A stretch of DNA of 14,737 bases, taken from Chrysochromulina parva (Eukaryota; Haptophyta; Prymnesiales; Chrysochromulinaceae). The stretch lies in assembly GCA_002887195.1 (NCBI GenBank), contig PJAB01001402.1, forward strand, positions 1-14,737, in the 5' to 3' direction. Below are positions 294 to 12,928 of this stretch, one piece after another. Numbering within the stretch: the stretch's first letter is position 1; the number at the start of each line of letters is the position of its first letter. The notes under the pieces are model-generated. The model did no database searches and had not been told where the DNA came from. It saw only the letters and a list, made by a program, of their open reading frames with translations. The position numbers and the translations under genes are program-made.

Positions 294-346
294 TGACGAA
301 CCCGTGCGCCTGACGAACCCGTGCGCCTGTGACGAAGCGTGCGCCT
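294..346. repeat. 17-bp tandem repeat, three units
   Basis: Two exact copies of TGACGAACCCGTGCGCC lie at 294-310 and 311-327. A diverged third copy starting TGACGAAGCGTGCGCC follows at about 330-346, after two extra bases. It lies in DNA without a supported gene. Confidence 0.7.
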
Positions 347-799
347 GCAGCCGATCCTCGTCAGGGCCGCCTCACTGCGCCACTCGCACTCGATGCCGCG
401 GGGCAATCGCCCGAGCGCTCGTGCTACAAGGGGGGGCTCGATGCCGCGAGCCTCGACTACCTATGGACATGTGTGTTGCATCATGGTTGTTAGCTCGTCA
501 TGATGATGGCCGGTGTGGCCGCCGAGGCCACCCGAGCCCTGTATGTGCATGCCATGGTGCATGCCTACAATCTGCATGTGATCAGGGAACTCGTACCTGG
601 ATTATGTGGAGTCTGGTGTAACGATATACCGGAACGCGCGACCGCGCGGCGCGCGGGCGAGCACGTCGTGTGCGAGCCTCCACGCTCCAGCCTCGACGAT
701 ACGATAGTTCGCGACGTGAGAAAATAATATATAACGGACTGATAACGGAAGTCGGAAGACGGAACGTCGGTGCCTGAGGACTATCAATGAATCGTCGAA

Positions 800-2084: not shown

Positions 2085-5000
2085 ATGCCGTCCAAGCCTG
2101 AGACGCGGGCGAAGGGTCAAGGCTCGGACCTCTCGCTCTGCGCCACACTCCTCTCTCTGTTCGACTTCAACGCGCTCGGCGAGGTATCCAAGGCGGACTG
2201 GGAGCGCGGCACGACCACGCTGCTGCTTGGGGAGCTCGGGAAAGATGATGTGCTCTGGACACGGCTGCTCGGGCTCTACGATCCGTCCGGCAAGGGCGCC
2301 ATCCAGCTCGATCGCGTGCGCGACATCCTGCCGATCGACCCGCGCATCTCCGTGCTGCTGCAGCAGCTCGTTCACGCGGTGGCCGGCTGCCGCGAATTCA
2401 TGGCCGCGGAGAAGAAGAAGCAGACGCAGCAGCAAGAGGTGAAAGCCAACCGCGCGGTGATCGATATGCGCAAGCGGCTGATGCAGCCCGTCTTTTCTGG
2501 CTGGTGCGACGCCGTGCGCAAAGACCGCAAGGCGCGCATCCGCGCCGCGCGCTTCATGCGCTCACAGGCCATCGGGCGCGCGTGGCGATCGTGGCACGGG
2601 CTGGCCGACGCATCGGCCGCCAAGCATGCGCGCATGGGCGCGCTGATGCGCCGCATGGTGCACCGCGGCGTAACGCGCGCGCTCATGCGCTGGGTCGCAT
2701 GGTGGGAGGAGCGGCGGGGGCAGCAGGCCGCGCTGAGGCGCGCACTCTCGCCACTCAACCGCGCGTGGAACCAGTGGAAGGCTCTGTGGAAGGCTCTGTC
2801 CGAGCAGAGGGCTGCGTTGAGGGTCGTGCTGCGGCGCGGCCTTGGCGGCGGCGCCCTCTCGAGAGCCTTCAACACGTGGCTCGCGTACCTCGCAGGCCAG
2901 TCAGCGCAGCAGGCCAGCACACGCCGGATAGGCGCGCAGCTCGTCGGCGCGCCGATCGCGCGCGCCTTCAACACGTGGCGTGCGGAGCGCGCCGGCAAGC
3001 GCGAGATGGCTCGCGCCCTTCGCCATCTCCTCCAGCATGGCCTCGCCAAGGCATGGCGGCGCTGGCGAGGCTCGCTCAAGGACCGTGGTAAGATGCATGC
3101 ATGCGCTCGTCGGCTGCTTCAGCGAGGCGTGCTCCGTGCTCTCAACCGTTGGCACGCCCTCGCACGCGAGCGCCGGCGGCTCCACGTGCTCGCCACGGCG
3201 CGGCGCGCCTTCTCTCCCCTTTGCAAGGCCTGGCGCGTGTGGCTTGAGCACAGCGAGAGGCGCCGCCAGCTGCGAGCGTTGCTCGGTCGCGGGCGGAGCG
3301 GCGGCGGGCTGCTTCACAAGGCGTGGCGTCAGTGGGTCGCAGGTGTGCGCGTGTGTGCGTGCGTTTGTGTGTGCGTGCTCGCACGCAGCCCCTGGCCGCC
3401 GCCGCCGCTGTCTGTCTGCCACCGCTGCTTGCGGCCGCTGCTTGCCACCGCTGCTTGCGACCGCTGCTTGCGACTGCTTGCTGCCACCGCTGCGACGGCG
3501 CCTGCCAATGTTGCGACTGCGCCTGCCACCGTTGCGACTGCGCCTGCCACCCCACGTGCGAACCGGTGCCGGCTCTCTGCGTCGCCCCTGCTCACCCCCC
3601 TCCCCCGGCGCTCCCCCCCCTCCCCCCCGCCCTTTCCTCCCCACCCTTGTTTCGCGATCTGCAGCGGCCGGTGACGTAGCCCAATTGAAGCAGTTCCTCC
3701 AGCGCTCGGCGCATGCGTTCAAAGGAGGACAGCTCAGAGCTTGGCACAAGTGGCGCGAGGTGCTCGACGAGCTGCCTGAGGCCTTCGCATGCAAGTGCTC
3801 ACCACGGCGCCCTCCCTTCCCCGCAGGTGCTCGAGGAGCTGCGAGAGGCTAGCGCGATCGCGTCCCGCATCGTGACGCGCGGCCCACAGAGGGCCTTCAG
3901 CCGGTGGCGCGGCTTCCTCGATGAGAAGGAGCGGCTGCGCAGCCTGACGAAACGGCTCCTGGCCAGCGGGCTCGCGCGCGCGTTGAATGCGTGGGTCGAC
4001 TCTCTCGACAAGACCGGTAGGAGAAGGCTGGGGCGCTTTGCTCGTCGGATGGTCCAACGTGCGCTCTCGAAGGCGTGGCTATGCTGGGTTGACCTTCTCG
4101 AAGAACGCTCAGGTGCGCTGCGCCATGAGCCATGCCCGGCGCAACGCCCATTTCCGCCGCCGCGCCCACCTCGCCGAGCCGCCGCCGCCGCGCTGCTGCC
4201 GCCGCCGCTGCCGCCGCTGCCGCCGCTGCCGCCGCCCACTCCCCATCCTCACCGCCGCCTCGCCTTCCACTGCGCCTGCTGTGCTCGCAGCGCTCATCGC
4301 AGCGCTATCCAAATTTGGGAGGCGAGTGCTCCAGCGAAGCGCGCTCGCGGCATTCAACACGTGGCTCGATTTGAAGGAGGCACGCAGGCGCGCGCTCAAG
4401 ATAGCAGGCCGTGTCGGGCGCGGCTCACTGCTGCGCGCGTGGAATAGCTTGGCGGCGCTCGGCGAGGAGCGACGGCGGCTCCGCCGCTTCGGCGCGCGTC
4501 TCAGGTTGCGAGAGGCAGCGCGCGCGATGGTTGGGTGGGTCGACGCCGTGTCCGAGCAACGCGAGGCGGCACGCCGGCGCGACAAGCTCAGGCAGAAGGT
4601 GCTCCGCCGAATGCGCGGCGACCTGACGCAGGCGGTGAGTGCACGCACGCCGCCGAACCCCGCCCTTGACCCCGCCCTCCACCCCGCACGCTCGCCACTT
4701 TACAGCCCTCCATGAGCCTCACAATAAGCCCTCCATACAGCCCTCGACCCCGCACGCGCGCCACTCTACAGCCCTCCAAAAGCCTCGCCTACTTGGGTGA
4801 TGCGCAGGTCTTCGACGCGTGGTCAGAGCTCGCAACAGCGGAGGCGGAGCGCAAGCGCGCGCTGCGCCATCGGGCCGCCCATCGGATGCGCAACCAGCTG
4901 CTTGTGCTCACGTTTGAAGCGTGGGCTTCCTTGTTGGGTGAAGCGGCTCGACGGCAGCAGTTGATCCGACCTTTTGTCAACTTGCTCAAGAACCGCACCC

Positions 5001-6841
5001 TCACAATCGTGTTCCGTGCGTGGAAGGACAGCACGGCCGAGGCGAAGGCATTGCGCAAGCGGTACGCGGCCAAGATCGTGCACACGCTCCTCGCCAAGAC
5101 CTTTGGGGCGTGGGCCGCCCTGACGGCCCAGATGCGCGCGCTCGAGCGCGAGCGGAGGCGTATTGCCACCGAAGCGCTGCGCAAGTTGCAATTTGGGGCC
5201 GTGCTGCAGTGCTTCCGCGCATGGAGCGGGTACCTCGTGGCGGCGCGCGAGGCGCTCACGATGGCGGCAGCGCGCTGGCAGATTGCGGGCGCCGCTGCGG
5301 CTTTTGTGACGTGGAAGGAGATGGTCTCGGAAGGTTCGAGGCTCGTCGCGCTTGGGCGCAAGATGATCCTACGCGCACAGAACAGCCTGCTCGCGCGCTG
5401 CTGGCTCGCGTGGGCGGCTCTCGTGCGGCGCCGCAAGGAGGAGCGCGAGTACTCGAACATGCGCGTGCTGGCAAAGCTCACCGGCAAGGCCGAGCTGCTC
5501 GTCAAGGCCCTCTTCTACGCGTGGCGCGACGAGGCGCGCGCGACAGCCCAGCGGCGCTTTGAGCTCACGACGAAGTTCATGGCGCGGTACAAGAACGCGG
5601 CGCTGGCGAAGACCTTCCTCGCATGGGTCGCTCTCACAGCTCACGAGGCGGCCATCCGCCGGGCGAAGATGACGCCCGCCGCGGCCTTCATCTCCGGCCA
5701 ACGCGAGCTCATGCTTCGACTGTGCTTCGACGCCTTTGTGCGCGCCGTGCGTGCGGCCGCCGAGGGGAGGGAGGCCGAGTCGGCTCAGGCGCGCCAAGAG
5801 GCGCTGCGCGTAACGGCCGAGTCGTCCTCCAAGTTTGCGGAGTCGGCGCAGGCGCTGCTGCAAACGACGCAGAGCTTGAGCGAGGCGGTCGCGGAGCTGC
5901 GCCAGAGCGGCGCCAAACGCGAGCGCTTCGTTGAGGAGACGGTCGATGCAACCGCCTCCCGGCTCGACACAATCGAGAAGCAGCTGCGTCGTACTGAGCA
6001 GCTTCTCGCGCCTCTGCCCGCTCAGGCAGTCGACCAGGCCGCGTACGCCCTGATGCGCGAGGAGGTAGGTCGACTGAGTTGCGCACTCGCGGCGACCCAG
6101 CGCCAGATGGCCGCGATGCAGAGCGCCAAGGCGGGCCGGCACGAGCTCGCCTTGATGGCGAATGGTTGGCACGCGATGCTCTTTGGCAGCGGCGGGGCAG
6201 CCAGGGTGCTCCGACACATGCAGACGACGCCCGCGACGACGCCCGTGCCCGTTACGTTCGCACCGCCCGAGCCGGTGTACGCGTTGCCCACGTACCAGCC
6301 CGCGCACCTGCCCGCCACCGCGCCGCTCGATGCGAGCGCGTTCGCCGCTGCCGAGACGGGGGACAAGCCCAGGCAAGCCCCGCTCGTCACGGCGGTAGAT
6401 GGCGCGGGCGCGGTTGCGGCGATGAGCTCGGCGGCGGCGGCGGCCGAGGCTCGTTCCATGGAGGCCAGCAGCCTACGACCACATCCCCCCGAAAGCCCGC
6501 GGCCGCAGAGCGCATCCCGGCCCGGCACCACCGGCCGACCCACAGCTGCCGTTGCCGCCGCTCGCGCCGCGCAGCCCATCGAGTACGGCATGGTACGGGA
6601 GTCGCAGCCCGAGTACGGCATGGTACGCCAGGCGTCACGGCCCGAGTCGGCGCGACCTCTCTCAAGGACGAGCGTTCGTGCGGCCAACGAACCGTTCGTC
6701 GAGGTGACCGACCTAGCGCAGCTCTTCAGCACGCAGGTGCCGGGGCGCTCTGCGGGCAGCGGGCGACCTTCGACGACGGTCAAGCGACCGACCAGCGCAG
6801 CCTCGGCGCAGCAGCGTGTCGGACGACTGCCGGGGGTCTGA
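2085..6841 (+). CDS. Sfi1-type centrin-binding repeat protein, five exons
   Basis: Exons are 2085-3342, 3665-3759, 3827-4112, 4291-4634 and 4808-6841, totalling 4017 nt for 1338 aa. All four introns are GT-AG and phases match (1,0,1,0). Residues 21-80 resemble two degenerate EF-hands (DFNALGEVSKAD, DPSGKGAIQLDR). From about 128 to 974 run some 27 Sfi1-type helical repeats, each ending in a motif such as KAWRRW, RAFNTW or KTFGAW, about 23-35 residues apart. Residues about 979-1104 form a coiled coil; the rest is Pro/Ser/Ala-rich and probably disordered, with two EYGMVR copies. In known Sfi1 proteins such repeats form a long helix that binds one centrin per repeat in Ca2+-sensitive fibres at centrosomes or basal bodies; that role is inferred here. 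The start has A at -3. Several repeats are nearly identical in DNA (CCTTCAACACGTGG three times), suggesting recent internal duplication. Confidence 0.85.
3343..3664 (+). other. Sfi1 gene intron 1, with minisatellite and pyrimidine tract
   Basis: The intron has GT at 3343 and CAG ending at 3664, phase 1, 322 nt. The donor side is an alternating GTGTGCGCGTGTGTGCGTGCG-like tract. The middle repeats CCACCGCTGCTTGC and GCGACTGCGCCTGCCA-like units. The end is a long C/T tract before CTGCAG. Reading through it loses all Sfi1 periodicity; removing it restores ...WRQWVA-A-GDVAQ. Confidence 0.7.
3760..3826 (+). other. Sfi1 gene intron 2, 67 nt, bounded by a tandem duplication
   Basis: The intron has donor GTGCTC at 3760 and CCCCGCAG ending at 3826, phase 0. 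Splicing joins WHKWRE to VLEELREA. The first bases of the intron are a near copy of the first bases of exon 3: 3758-3782 and 3825-3849 match at 22 of 25. The duplication period equals the intron length. A motif shared with two other sites lies at 3787-3812. Confidence 0.75.
4113..4290 (+). other. Sfi1 gene intron 3, with CCG/CTG triplet tract
   Basis: The intron has GT at 4113 and GCTCGCAG ending at 4290, phase 1, 178 nt. Its interior is a GCCGCC/GCTGCC triplet tract followed by a pyrimidine-rich stretch. A second in-phase acceptor CATCGCAG ends at 4302, so use of either would differ by four residues (Ala-Leu-Ile-Ala). Confidence 0.7.
4635..4807 (+). other. Sfi1 gene intron 4, with a 66-bp period duplication
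   Basis: The intron has the strong donor GTGAGT at 4635 and ATGCGCAG ending at 4807, phase 0, 173 nt. Splicing joins GDLTQA to VFDAWSEL, another Sfi1 repeat. The interior has two 48-bp copies, 4675-4722 and 4741-4788. Confidence 0.75.
4675..4788. repeat. 48-bp direct repeat inside Sfi1 intron 4
   Basis: Copies at 4675-4722 and 4741-4788 match at about 42 of 48 bases, period 66. Each includes CCCCGCACG, CGCCACT and TACAGCCCTCCA. A third partial TACAGCCCTC lies at 4736-4745. Confidence 0.85.
6581..6630 (+). repeat. Coding 30-bp repeat encoding EYGMVR twice
   Basis: GAGTACGGCATGGTACG occurs at 6581-6597 and 6611-6627, in frame in the disordered tail of the Sfi1-repeat protein. The duplicated peptide is EYGMVR followed by E or Q. 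It could be a short linear docking or tyrosine phosphorylation motif; this is inference. Confidence 0.75.
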
Positions 6842-6920
6842 TGAGGGCGCGCGCCGTGGTAAGCACTTGCATGCAGCTTCGGCGCAGCAGCGCGCCGGAC
6901 GACTGCCCGAGGTCTGACGA
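6797..6920 (+). repeat. Duplicated 3' end of the Sfi1 coding region
   Basis: 6797-6844 (last codons and stop of the gene) is repeated at 6873-6920, period 76, matching at 42 of 48. The second copy would encode AASAQQRAGRLPEV plus a stop, against AASAQQRVGRLPGV in the gene. Between the copies lies GTGGTAAGCACTTGCATGC, the reverse complement of a motif found in two introns. Confidence 0.85.
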
Positions 6921-7615: not shown

Positions 7616-8296
7616 TCATACCTCGTCTTTCAGCTGATCGATCTCGTCTACAGTGCCATCTCCAAGATCCAAGTCACTCCCCTTCATCATGGTCATGCCG
7701 GGCATGGCGGGCATGCCCGCCAACAATTTCTCAAGCTCGTCATCCTTGTTCATCCTGGGACTGAAAATCTCATTCTTGCGCACTTTGCCCTCAGGCCAGA
7801 CAGGCTCCTTCCCCTTTTTGCACACGTTGGCCATCTTGGTGCAGACGCGCTGCGCCGTGGTACCAGCTGATTTCTTCTCTCGGAGCAGCTCGACGAGTTC
7901 ATCGGCGTCCACCTTCTCCATCACCTGATCGCACGCCTTCGCAATAGTCCTGCACTCCCGCCTGCAGTTGCCTGGGCCGATGTGCGACAGCACAAGTTTC
8001 TGTCCCTGTTTGGACACGTCAAGCTCAGACATCCAGAGACCCTCGTCTCCACGGCCTTCCTTGCCATCCGCGTCCGCATCGCAGATCTTCTCAAGCATGT
8101 CCTCCACCGCGCTCTGAGTTGACATGGCGGCTGCACGCTTCACCGCCTCATGTACCATCTTCGTGCAGGTCTCGCATCGTATGTACTTGAGGTCTTCGGT
8201 AAGTGGCGCGGGCTTTAGCTTCTTCGGCATTCCATATTCTCCCATCATTTGCGCGCTGGCCAGAGCGATGGCCAACAGGAATGCGGAAGGCCGCAT
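7616..8296 (-). CDS. Canopy (CNPY)/DUF3456 saposin-like ER protein
   Basis: From the innermost start at 8296 this encodes 226 aa. Residues 1-15 are a signal peptide (MRPSAFLLAIALASA). The mature part carries the canopy/TLR4-regulator pattern of disulfide-forming cysteines: C41 and C44 (CETC), C72, C101, C105, C112, C142, C149, on helices as in the saposin fold. The tail is acidic and Met-rich (AGMPAMPGMTMM) and ends in KDEV, close to the KDEL/HDEL retrieval signal. Animal canopy proteins are ER-resident folding or client-trafficking factors; a similar luminal role is inferred. Four further in-frame ATGs at 8311, 8326, 8341 and 8356 come from a 15-bp repeat, and another lies at 8389. The innermost gives the cleanest signal peptide, but use of an upstream start cannot be excluded. 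The gene is intronless and divergent from the methyltransferase/PhyH gene. Confidence 0.85.
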   Translation of the reverse strand: MRPSAFLLAIALASAQMMGEYGMPKKLKPAPLTEDLKYIRCETCTKMVHEAVKRAAAMSTQSAVEDMLEKICDADADGKEGRGDEGLWMSELDVSKQGQKLVLSHIGPGNCRRECRTIAKACDQVMEKVDADELVELLREKKSAGTTAQRVCTKMANVCKKGKEPVWPEGKVRKNEIFSPRMNKDDELEKLLAGMPAMPGMTMMKGSDLDLGDGTVDEIDQLKDEV

Positions 8297-8355
8297 TACG
8301 GAAGGCCGCATTACGGAAGGCCGCATTACGGAAGGCCGCATTACGGAAGGCCGCA
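8281..8355 (-). repeat. 15-bp minisatellite multiplying the canopy start codon
   Basis: Five 15-bp units with the + strand core GGAAGGCCGCA lie at 8281-8295, 8296-8310, 8311-8325, 8326-8340 and 8341-8355. Read on the minus strand each gives ATGCGGCCTTCC followed by GTA or GCA, so each provides an in-frame Met and adds MRPSV. The units are identical except where the innermost joins the signal peptide. Confidence 0.9.
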
Positions 8356-8528
8356 TTACGGAGTGACGTGTCGTGCACCGTAATTCCATACTAGGCAATG
8401 AAAGAATCCCTCCAGTGTTTCGTCGCACGTCTACAAGAAATGCACAGCTGCTGCCTTGCATGTCCCGGATCGTGTTTCGTCACTCATGCGACTCACATGC
8501 GTGAGACAAAGCATAGACCTTCTCCACG
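8297..8528. promoter_or_regulatory. Divergent intergenic region, likely bidirectional promoter
   Basis: This region separates the canopy starts (minus) from the methyltransferase/PhyH start (plus, 8529). The 15-bp repeat occupies its left end, so true non-coding space may be only about 170 bp. An imperfect palindrome, CTCACATGCGTGAG, lies at 8491-8504 close to the plus-strand start. No TATA box is evident. Confidence 0.45.
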
Positions 8529-10803: not shown

Positions 10804-12928
10804 ATGGCCTTCCCGTGGCACCACATCCAAAACTTGAGCCGCGATTGCTCCGCGTTTGTGACCCCGACAATAGACCGCCTCGCTGCGAGCCTTGCCAGGC
10901 CTGTTGCCGCCAGTGATGATGCCAGCTGCTTCAAACACAGCTCCAAGAAGGACGCATCCAAGGTGCTCGGATCCAAGAAGCTCGAAGCTAATAAGCTCGC
11001 GCCAAAGGTACAGCAGAAGAGGCGCGTCGTCGACCTCAAGTCGCTAAACCCATCGCTGTCAGTGATCGGCGCCGAGACCATCTCGGCGTTGATGCCGCGT
11101 TTTCTGCCCAAGGCTGGCCTCGCGTGCGAGCGCATGCAGCACCTCGGCATGACGCCGGAGATGATTCGGATGGTCCTGCGCGCGGTGTGGTCGATTCCCC
11201 CCGATGGCGAGGAGAAGCAGTCCGAGGAGGCGCTTCGCGAGATCTTTAGCATGCTCGATACGTCGGGGGACGGCGTTCTCGACATGGATGAGTTCCTCGC
11301 CATGCTACAGATTATCGGCGAGACGTTGCCGGCCGCGGTGCTTCCGCGGCTATTCGCGCTGGTTGACAACGACCGCGGCGGGACGGTGGATGGCGCCGAG
11401 TTTGTCCAGTTCGTGCGACGCGCCAACCCCTATGACGAGGGGTCGCCTGAAGGCTGGATGGCCTTTTTGCCTGAGTCCGCCGCCCATTTTGAGGAGATGG
11501 TGCTGCTGCACGTGAGCGAGGGCCGCTCGGTGGGCGAACGTGGGCGCTCGAGCGGTGGAAAAGCGTGGCGCGTCATCGGTCTGGACGAGCTGGAGCACGT
11601 GACGCGCTCGGCGGCCGAGCCGTGGTCGACCTCCATCGTGCTGCCGCGCACGGACGTCGAGAATGCCGAGGCGGTCATCCGCGGCTTGCGAGCCCTCAAG
11701 TTTCGTGATGATGAGATCCATACTGTGGTGCGCACGCTCTTCGTCTCGCATACGGACGCCGACTACGCAAAGCTCTTCCGGATCTTTGACCGAGACAACG
11801 ACGGCGGCATCGATCCTTACGAGTTCCGCGAGATCTGCTCCCTCTTTGGCGACCATGCGACCGAGGCCGAGGCTCGCGAGCTCTTCGTGGGAGCGGACGA
11901 GGACAACGACGGCACGTTGAACGTGGCCGAGTTCACGCAGCTGATCAAGCGGATCACGCCCAAGGCGCAGGTTCGTTGATTGCCACTGATGACCTGCCTT
12001 GCATGCATTGGCGTGTGGAGCGCCAAGGCGCAGGTTCGTTGATTGCCACTGATGACCTGCCATGCATGCAAGCGCTCACCACATCGCCCCGCTCCCGCCC
12101 ATCGAGCAGGATATCTCCGACTTGCAGGCGCAGAAGCTCGCAGTCGCCACGGAGCAGCTCCGAGAGCGTATCGCGAGCCTCAACGCTCAAAAAGCGCCCG
12201 ACCCGAGCAGCGCCGATGCAATGATGCAGCTGCTCATCATGGGCTCGTCGAAGAGCGGCAAGACGTACGTGCTGAACCAGGTGCTCGAGGACAAGCTACC
12301 CAAGGGATGCACAGTCTCGGTCGGTGTGGGGGGCATCGTGCTGCGCCTGGGCCAGTTCTCCGTCGCCGTGCAGGTCATCGACATCCCCGGCGATCCACGC
12401 TATGCGCCGCTCGGCACCCTATTCTACGCAGCTACTCCGTATGTGATCCTCATGTTCGACGCCACGTCGTTCGAGAGCTTCGAAGCGCTCCAACCGTTGC
12501 TCGATGCCTTCCGGCGCGCCAATCCCGCTTGCGACCCGGCACAGCATGCATGCGTCGTGGCGAACGAGGCGCGCGTCGGCATGAAGCACGCCGTCACTCC
12601 CGGACTCGCGCTCCAGTGGTGCGAGCAAAACGGCGACATACCGTTCTTCAACATCGACCCCCAGGCGCCGCAGGGGATCCTCGAGGCCCTCCGCTGCCTC
12701 GCCGACCACGCCCTCACGCAGCAGGGCGTCGCGGCGTCAGGGCGCCACGGCGGCGACTCGCTTTGGGGCACGCAGAGCTTCGGGGGGCGCGTGCTCAAGG
12801 GGCAAGCAAGGAGACATCCGCTCAGCCGGCAAGCATCTCTACAAATCCCTCATCCGCTGAGCCGCCAAGCTAGTTTACAAATCCCTCGTCCGCTGAGCCG
12901 CCAAGCTAGTTTGGGTGCGCTAAACTAA
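10804..12928 (+). CDS. EF-hand, coiled-coil, Rab-like GTPase protein, two exons
   Basis: Exon 1 is 10804-11970 and exon 2 is 12110-12928, phase 0, 661 aa. The start has A at -3 and G at +4. Four EF-hand loops are visible at residues 152-163, 188-199, 329-340 and 365-376 (for example DRDNDGGIDPYE). Residues 390-418 form a short coiled coil. Residues 428-595 are Ras-superfamily-like: P-loop GSSKSGKT (434-441), DIPG (480-483) for the DxxG motif, FDATSFES typical of Rab folds. The NKxD motif is degenerate (VANEAR), so nucleotide specificity is uncertain. The C-terminus has no cysteine prenylation motif and ends in three PLSRQASL repeats, which fit RxxS kinase sites. The order resembles animal CRACR2A, RASEF and Rab44, Ca2+-regulated trafficking GTPases. 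Without splicing, exon 1 stops at 11979 after the EF-hands and an ATG at 12062 could start a separate GTPase, so two genes remain possible. Confidence 0.78.
11960..12070 (+). repeat. 48-bp direct repeat spanning the exon-intron junction
   Basis: 11960-12007 and 12023-12070 match at 47 of 48 bases, period 63. Each copy holds the last 11 bases of exon 1, the donor GTTCGT, the stop TGA and the first 37 bases of the intron. The near identity suggests a recent event. A 15-base spacer separates the copies. Confidence 0.92.
11971..12109 (+). other. Intron of the EF-hand/GTPase gene with duplicated 5' splice site
   Basis: GT at 11971 follows GCGCAG; ATCGAGCAG ends at 12109. Length is 139 nt, phase 0 on both sides, joining ITPKAQ to DISDLQ. 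The donor and its exon flank recur at 12034, inside the intron. The right part shares the motif GCATGCAAGCGCTCACCAC (12064-12082) with Sfi1 intron 2. Confidence 0.7.
12815..12925 (+). repeat. 36-bp coding repeat, PLSRQASLQIP units
   Basis: Units are 12815-12850, 12851-12886 and a shortened third from 12887. The first two differ at six bases, all synonymous, including Ser TCT against AGT. Each encodes (H/R)PLSRQASL. Two units continue with QIP; the last ends GALN and the TAA stop. Confidence 0.9.

Follow-up and report, generated by a model that had tools for sequence, protein, structure and literature searches.

A short repeated motif in Chrysochromulina parva as the probable core of a recently active family of introner-like elements

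Introduction

Why should introns of unrelated genes on one short contig share a block of some 24 bases, and why should the same block stand inverted behind a stop codon? The question is raised by contig PJAB01001402.1 of the haptophyte Chrysochromulina parva (assembly GCA_002887195.1), the whole 14,737 nt of which we call the window. A first, sequence-only reading had noted a 24-26-base motif in an intron of an Sfi1 gene, in an intron of an EF-hand/Ras-like GTPase gene and, as the reverse complement, at the 3′ end of the Sfi1 gene, and had proposed a family of introner elements. The three copies lie where that reading had put them: the 19-base core occupies 3787-3805 (+), 12064-12082 (+) and 6856-6874 (-) with 0, 0 and 1 mismatches, the 26-base stretches starting at 3787 and 12064 are identical at 23 of 26 positions (88%), and 6844-6874 is 90% complementary to 3787-3817. 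No other core with up to three mismatches is present in the window; 0.02 would be expected, and none of 200 shuffles reached three. Here we report that the motif very probably forms the core of introner-like elements that are very short and belong to a recently active family; they would spread by templated insertion and give birth to new introns.

Results

A core repeated throughout the genome

We searched both strands of the 45.07-Mb genome, comprising 2,199 contigs (the window is contig C1402). The conserved core of the family is about 24 nt in length (GCATGCAAGYGCTCACCACRGCGC). Its 19-base form (GCATGCAAGYGCTCACCAC) was found in 669 exact copies (353 forward and 316 reverse) and its reversed-pattern control in none; with up to three mismatches the counts were 1,915 and 7, and a 24-base form with RGCGC gave 528 exact copies. 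Because both the exact and the approximate copies so outnumber their controls, occurrence at the chance rate can be set aside. The motif is moreover linked to introns and duplicated flanks, supporting the guess of a very short introner-like family. The same guess had left room for a degraded family, and this part seems not to hold: the 669 and 528 exact copies correspond to a loss of about 5% per base, so that the family looks young. A special constraint on the core was considered and is not needed, as this loss is comparable to the 7% divergence between the copies of the target duplications described below.

We read 143 distinct copies of the approximately 1,915 cores (those of the window included) in fetched sequence, which comprised 20 stretches of roughly 10 kb each and 80 short stretches surrounding listed places. 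Large contigs and exact matches were taken first, and 20 loci selected by a 5′ arm were added, so the class proportions given below describe this sample rather than the whole genome. The base directly 3′ of the core is G in 68% and A in 31% of the 143 copies and is followed by GCGC, each base of which is conserved in 89-97% although these four bases played no part in the selection of copies. The 5′ arm (GTTGATTGCCACTGATGACCTGCC) lies upstream of only some cores and has 175 genome matches with up to three mismatches; 46 of the 51 arms that were read are followed by the core, and 37 of the 51 have an AG at the expected place upstream. Exact right halves of the core (1,100 in the genome) outnumber left halves (824), a difference that position-specific variation could explain; in the fetched sequence, 4 of 100 right halves lack the left half. 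The carriers include myosin, EPSP synthase, ABC, AMPK-CBM, malonyl-CoA decarboxylase and sortilin genes; similar introns thus occur at many positions in unrelated genes, as in introners.

Long target duplications

Target-primed reverse transcription of long and short interspersed elements (LINE/SINE) is known for long target duplications of variable length, end truncation and junction microhomology. To score duplications, the left and right flanks of 95 isolated copies were aligned, a score of at least 22 being taken as significant; the other 48 of the 143 copies, which had a second core less than 120 nt away or too little flanking sequence, were set aside. A flanking direct duplication was found in 74 of the 95 copies (75 in a second pass), compared with 2.6% of mismatched left-right pairs. 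The duplications are 13-46 bp long (median 25, quartiles 20 and 32; pooled identity 0.93, n = 75), that is, long and variable as in LINE/SINE elements and not short and fixed as in miniature inverted-repeat transposable elements (MITEs). Among the copies without a significant duplication, some resemble decayed class A or B copies (see below) and a few have no visible intron. No terminal inverted repeats were seen by eye at the ends of the copies listed, among which a single inverted pair is present, at locus L057, where two facing cores are separated by about 43 nt and flanked by no significant direct duplication.

Short homology is favoured at the junctions. Among the 36 copies of classes A and C, 7 have a duplication that reaches at least 4 nt back over the element end (p = 2e-6, a rough value because the background of 1.7% is the plain frequency of GCGC), and AGGT opens the target duplication in 15 of 38 class B copies, against a background of 5.9%. 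Tandem arrays of two or three units, each a core plus a target copy, occur at L036 (three 39-nt units), L041, L045, L062 (two 27-nt units) and L097, which suggests later unequal exchange or repeated insertion.

Three structural classes

After hand-sorting, in which six copies were moved by eye, the classes comprised 22 A, 38 B and 14 C copies and one A/B copy (automatic sorting: A 19, B 37, C 13, other 6; looser rules: A 21, B 35, C 19). Class B copies consist of target copy 1, a short filler, the core, GGCGCC, a pyrimidine tract, TTCCCCACAG and target copy 2; the element would bring the branch point and the 3′ splice site, and the duplicated target the 5′ site. An AG could be placed in 36 of the 38, and 33 of these 36 predicted introns start with GT exactly at the duplicated position. 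As such an intron runs from the duplicated GT to the AG of the element, its removal would return the uninterrupted target. The putative branch-point A (GCTCA) lies 22-33 nt from the AG in the 36 copies. The predicted introns have the GT-AG ends, branch point and pyrimidine tract of U2-type introns. In class A, target copy 1 ending in CAG is followed by GTACGTTGATTGCC...CCTT, the core, AGCGC, a variable filler and target copy 2, also ending in CAG; here the element supplies the 5′ splice site and the duplicated target the 3′ site. Class C copies have no splice signals and contain the core and GGCGC, with little else, between the target copies. Similarity at the intron ends is confined to the 3′ part in class B and to the 5′ part in most of class A; class B would fit 5′ truncation with a fixed 3′ end, as in LINE/SINE retroposons, but class A has a fixed 5′ and a variable 3′ end. 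On these predictions the core by itself makes no intron, and the duplicated target has to provide the splice site that the copy lacks.

The Sfi1 gene of the window carries a class B copy and the reverse copy:

3760..3826 (+), predicted Sfi1 intron, class B copy, 67 nt: GAG/GTGCTC ... CCCCGCAG/GTGC; excision restores the frame of the Sfi1 repeats (WHKWREVLEELREAS)
3758..3782 (+), first copy of the target duplication (25 bp, 88% identity to the second), which provides the 5′ splice site
3787..3805 (+), 19-base core, with the probable branch-point A at 3801 (GCTCA), judged from the CTCAC motif and the 22-33 nt to the AG in 36 copies
3806..3826 (+), 3′ end of the element: GGCGCC, pyrimidine tract and CAG 3′ splice site, from the logo (TTCCCCACAG) of 36 class B copies
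3825..3849 (+), second copy of the target duplication, in the exon; from the flank alignment
6845..6874 (-), reverse-orientation copy: core (6856-6874), GGCGC and filler, a 30-nt insert after the Sfi1 stop codon (the open reading frame 4712-6841 ends upstream)
6799..6844 (+), target duplication copy 1 of the reverse copy, 46 bp, containing the stop codon; flank alignment
6875..6920 (+), target duplication copy 2 of the reverse copy, 46 bp, 87% identical; flank alignment

The reverse copy at 6856-6874 shows no evident intron and appears to be a tolerated, unspliced copy. The proposal that the motif may work in either orientation needs refining: the role in introns is confined to the sense orientation, and the clear reverse copies are in-frame coding inserts (L016, L020 and L024) or, as here, follow a stop codon. 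Elsewhere in the window, the reverse-strand open reading frame 7616-8461 has MRPSV repeats close to its N-terminus, encoded by 5.3 copies of a perfect 15-nt repeat (8284-8362).

The distance between the target copies is divisible by three in 12 of 14 class C copies (p = 8e-5; 14 of 19 before hand-sorting, 10 of them automatically scored as frame-open), and the distances between class B target copies are spread over the three remainders (10, 15 and 13), as expected of introns. With a codon model, the frame of the single-copy target is open in 15/21 class A, 27/35 class B and 14/19 class C copies, and the coding strand coincides with the core strand in 19/21, 28/35 and 13/19. Clear class C readings are HASAHHGA, MQVLTTAP and ACKCSPRR in sense and AVVSTCMQ and RRGEHLHA in antisense; the core is thus translated, by prediction, in three forward and two reverse frames, the sixth frame containing a stop codon. 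An example of read-through is 'APSTDAAWNVVVHASAHHGAPSTDAAWNVVVG' in L070. Most copies lacking splice signals have lengths divisible by three or sit in untranslated sequence.

From 60 class A and B copies, 20 excised proteins were picked by hand and searched against Pfam, the splice point being judged from the target length and L038 being left uncounted. A domain spans the splice point in 12 of the 20, 9 of which score higher than the curated cut-off (ABC_tran, EPSP_synthase, Myosin_head, AMPK1_CBM, Gelsolin, Melibiase_2, Pyr_redox_2, PQQ_2 and PX); the remaining 8 of the 20 have no Pfam domain or one that does not cross the splice point.

An apparently mosaic intron

The intron of the EF-hand/Ras-like GTPase gene is composite:

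11971..12109 (+), predicted intron, 139 nt, composite class A, from the spliced protein compared with homologues
11971..12007 (+), truncated unit 1: 5′ arm GTTCGTTGATTGCCACTGATGACCTGCC plus TTGCATGCA, cut inside the core (an arm without a full core)
12008..12033 (+), 26-base passenger matching a sortilin/Vps10 exon on contig C373, from a search with the 24-mer 12010-12033
12034..12063 (+), second 5′ arm, from the arm search
12064..12082 (+), 19-base core, C variant, from the core search
12083..12109 (+), intron 3′ end ATCGCCCCGCTCCCGCCCATCGAGCAG, resembling the 3′ end of an intron in an STL11_N-domain gene (L106), from the alignment to L106

The protein predicted after splicing is gap-free at the junction against 11 homologues (49-56% identity). 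A 99% identical protein from other data (P0001) ends in ...ITPKAQVR, which corresponds to the first codons of the intron, so the intron is probably present there too.

With up to three mismatches, the 24-mer 12010-12033 occurs in the genome only in the window and twice in C373, where one occurrence marks the end of an exon and the other its duplicate, on either side of an arm that breaks off at GCATGCA; when the C373 intron is removed, Pfam Sortilin-Vps10 spans the junction (E = 1.5e-23). The window stretch 11960-12087 is 94.5% identical to C373 over 128 nt, 12026-12111 is 89.5% identical to the L106 intron over 86 nt, and past the core the window follows L106. The donor and target exon ends have an 11-base match (CCAAGGCGCAG). 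The presence of a piece of sortilin exon inside the window intron shows that the latter was copied from an intron of the sortilin gene or from an intermediate since lost. The EF-hand/Ras intron thus looks like a mosaic of sortilin-like and L106-like parts, the order of events being our reconstruction. Each of the three window copies had been said to lie between or to overlap the copies of a local tandem duplication. Duplicated flanks do accompany each of them (families D12, D15 and D20); for the 63-base duplication at 11960-12070, however, a purely local tandem origin was rejected, since its middle 26 bases (12008-12033) match the gene on C373.

A small subfamily with the tail CGTTCGGCTCTCGMGGAGCAGGC was found at six genome places (up to two mismatches), each behind an arm and a core, with similarity running from the arm to the 3′ end. 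In four of the six, the last bases of the element itself, GGAGCAG, also end the upstream exon, and in one more they lie just upstream. The C-terminus of the EF-hand/Ras protein has a repeat of its own: a 36-nt tandem repeat (12815-12912, 2.7 copies) encoding HPLSRQASLQIP-like units.

Empty sites in relatives

Related proteins show sites with and without the insert. At L027, a class B copy in the malonyl-CoA decarboxylase gene whose target duplication is identical at 24 of 24 positions, five of seven relatives at 92-98% identity have an empty site and one (P0055) carries the insert, read through in frame. In the seventh, P0061, nine residues of the target are duplicated and the core is missing.

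At L026, in a protein related to HhH-GPD/MBD glycosylases, the presence of coding copies varies too. P0021 and P0023 (100% and 97% identity over 46% and 45% of the query) lack the antisense copy, P0018-P0020 and P0022 have it once, and the window genome and P0017 have it twice. The sense copy, HASDHHGA, is missing in P0022 (76% identity over 93%), P0024, P0028 and the Prymnesium parvum protein P0052; it occurs once in the window genome, P0017 and P0019-P0021 and twice in P0018, and P0023 allows no judgement at this site. As in introners, insertions into exons are found whose predicted splicing would restore the coding sequence. The sequence-only reading had also pointed to haptophytes, and support for this is only indirect: among the matches listed for one carrier protein, the single one with a species name is from Prymnesium parvum (86% identity over 8% of the query).

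Discussion

The origin of introns is an old open question, and here the donor gene, the recipient gene and the copied piece can all be named, which makes intron birth traceable gene by gene. As empty sites and two fates, intron or coding insert, are available as well, selection can be separated from the mechanism of insertion. Given the 13-46 bp duplications, a copy would enter the DNA at a staggered break or a pair of nicks. Templated synthesis at such a site with a long overhang may make the copy, primed or anchored by short homology between the target and the bases that close the element, be they GGCGC, CAG or a tail passed on from a donor (for example GGAGCAG); truncation could occur at either end of the element, the fill-in of the overhang would yield the long duplication, and selection would then retain the inserts that are spliced out exactly or keep the frame. 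Class C suggests that many-residue inserts are tolerated, yet class B copies would nearly always be removed exactly, which hints that, beyond selection, the choice of target itself may favour proto-splice sites.

As to the template, target-primed reverse transcription of intron RNA is our leading version, held tentatively. An RNA template fits because the element ends coincide with splice sites, and template switching fits because both ends are truncated and one intron is mosaic. A more detailed scheme, possible but on balance doubtful, would make this one of the smallest mobile sequences: introns released by splicing would be the source of retro-copies, some 24 nt long, that enter exons at staggered nicks. 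A copy would give an intron at a proto-splice site or a peptide when in frame, in either orientation, and new introns would act as donors whose inherited 3′ tails (such as GGAGCAG) guide them to matching exons.

The strongest competitor is repair templated by DNA, in which breaks with long overhangs are filled in and an intron segment is copied by microhomology-mediated template switching with no dedicated enzyme. It would account for the truncation at both ends, the junction microhomology, the apparent joining of sortilin-like and L106-like parts, the 11 bases (CCAAGGCGCAG) common to the donor and target exon ends and the core-less duplication in P0061. However, class B ends at its AG and class A mostly begins at the intron GT, which is natural for an RNA intermediate, and hundreds of copies of one core require a preferred template. 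We therefore regard DNA-templated repair as a real but somewhat less probable explanation and place reverse transcription of intron RNA slightly ahead of it.

Several observations weigh against the family as we interpret it or against its retro-copying. No significant duplication was found in 20 of the 95 isolated copies, no poly(A) or repeat tail of a retrotransposon was noticed by eye among the copies listed, and class A has no fixed 3′ end, unlike the products of ordinary target-primed reverse transcription. No enzyme is assigned to the family; in the 45 Mb the genome scan gave at least five RVT_1 matches (C103, C34, C324, C1434 and C2182), four of them in open frames of 1,345-2,709 codons. 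The P0061 duplication could be a footprint or an independent event at a break-prone site. As the copies were found by core or arm, pieces with neither would be missed, and the 'core' is perhaps partly an effect of the search. Splicing is predicted from frames, domains and relatives. The insert is readable through in frame in 7/35 class B and 2/21 class A copies, and class A distances lean to threes (11, 3 and 8 over the remainders; multiples of three in 11/22, p = 0.11), so a few predicted introns may be coding inserts. The codon model also puts the coding strand opposite to the core in 7/35 class B and 2/21 class A copies, and in 8/35 class B copies the empty site is closed in the chosen frame.

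Movement of a non-autonomous DNA transposon of the MITE type by a transposase, an origin proposed for some algal introners, is improbable. Target duplication combined with splice-site co-option is what such introners show in the account of Gozashti et al. (2022; PMC9860276), but the repeats given there are 3-9 bp long, against 13-46 bp here, and terminal inverted repeats were not seen by eye at the ends of the copies listed; duplications that vary up to 46 bp and the absence of inverted repeats make a cut-and-paste enzyme ill-suited. Still less probable is reverse splicing of intron RNA into another mRNA, followed by reverse transcription and recombination into its gene: the ends at AG/G(T) sites would suit it, but it should leave neither 13-46 bp duplications nor in-frame coding copies in both orientations. 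It is very unlikely that the core is an immobile splicing signal, a branch-point context that arose or was kept by selection; it does hold a good branch-point sequence within a narrow distance range of the AG, but it is also translated in three forward and two reverse frames and stands reversed after a stop codon at window 6856, and the presence/absence polymorphism of the core together with its duplication refutes this explanation. An artefact of library or assembly (adapter, chimeric joins), which might come to mind because the exact repeats are short and the assembly is a draft in 2,199 contigs, can practically be dismissed in view of the dependence on frame and splice sites, the divergence among copies, the same inserts in proteins of other contigs or sources (P0017-P0020, P0055 and P0001) and one exact core in an IMG/VR contig; chance or artefact is rejected by the shuffles, the reversed-pattern controls and the relatives from other sources.

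The introner elements that Huff et al. are said to have described in Aureococcus in 2016 reportedly are repeated introns at new positions in many genes, in sense orientation and from a recent burst. The same traits link our family to the introner elements of Micromonas (PMC3879977), which are characterized as repeat introns whose sequence is conserved; our copies often have no more than about 24-45 nt in common, and their duplications are long and variable. Comparable too are the introners of a Chrysochromulina sp. (TARA metagenome-assembled genome; Gozashti et al., 2022), for which 4-bp duplications and co-opted 3′ splice sites are reported (PMC9860276). As in class A, the element brings the 5′ site and the target the 3′ site, and there are no inverted repeats. 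The comparison, made from descriptions, also brings out differences: 4 bp against 13-46 bp of duplication, and in our family three modes, apparently translated copies included. The pipeline of that study, as described, works on annotated introns, which have to be similar close to each of their two ends; most copies of our family would likely escape it, having only one element-derived end. Intron gain by tandem duplication of AGGT (PMC4974935) is alike in that splice sites arise from duplicated exon sequence with AG/GT, and direct repeats of 4-30 bp (mean 11.4) around introns (PMC11782384) have their counterpart here. Our copies, which were selected by it, have a mobile core between the repeats, and the abstracts of these two papers mention no shared insert. 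Compared with LINE/SINE elements, the family is much shorter, is truncated at the 3′ end too and has neither a tail nor an identified reverse transcriptase partner. Searches of open-access introner literature, judged by titles and abstract openings, brought up no account of so short a core, of duplications both long and variable, or of introner copies that code in frame. Since what single copies have in common is limited to 24-45 nt and one end, surveys in which both ends of an intron must match likely miss such families, and intron gain by short mobile pieces may be under-counted.

Candidate introners have been reported in mirusviruses (PMC12768974). Rfam gave no match in the window at gathering scores, and a piece of the 5′ arm had no match in a search of sequences of virus origin. 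The exact core in IMG/VR lies near a contig end (L009, 4495-4513 of 4554). The surrounding stretch (L009:4369-4554) holds the core, a pyrimidine-rich part and CACAG/GTGAG beside a GACGAACCC repeat between two copies of a sequence of about 30 bases; GACGAACCC recurs at window 294-347. This contig end is perhaps a chimeric join with a relative of the window genome, and we draw from it no inference on viral hosts.

A scan for 3′ splice sites of introns lacking the core gave 14 sites, with a control drawn from those same few, and no conclusion is based on it. A scan of 214 kb for tandem duplications (at least 24 pairs with and at least 190 without the core, mostly simple repeats) served only as a lead to a second, larger introner-like family. 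Its members end in GATTGCCTCCCTCATCAG/G, a pattern with 2,887 genome copies (up to two mismatches; reversed control 0), and their body is often a 10-nt repeat such as CTCTGATGAC (examples: L013:2448-2525, L026, L035 and L067). A target duplication at a score of at least 22 flanks 13 of 23 isolated copies, compared with 8.3% in controls, and the pattern match at L035:694 (+) has a flanking duplication of 59 bp, longer than any of the core family.

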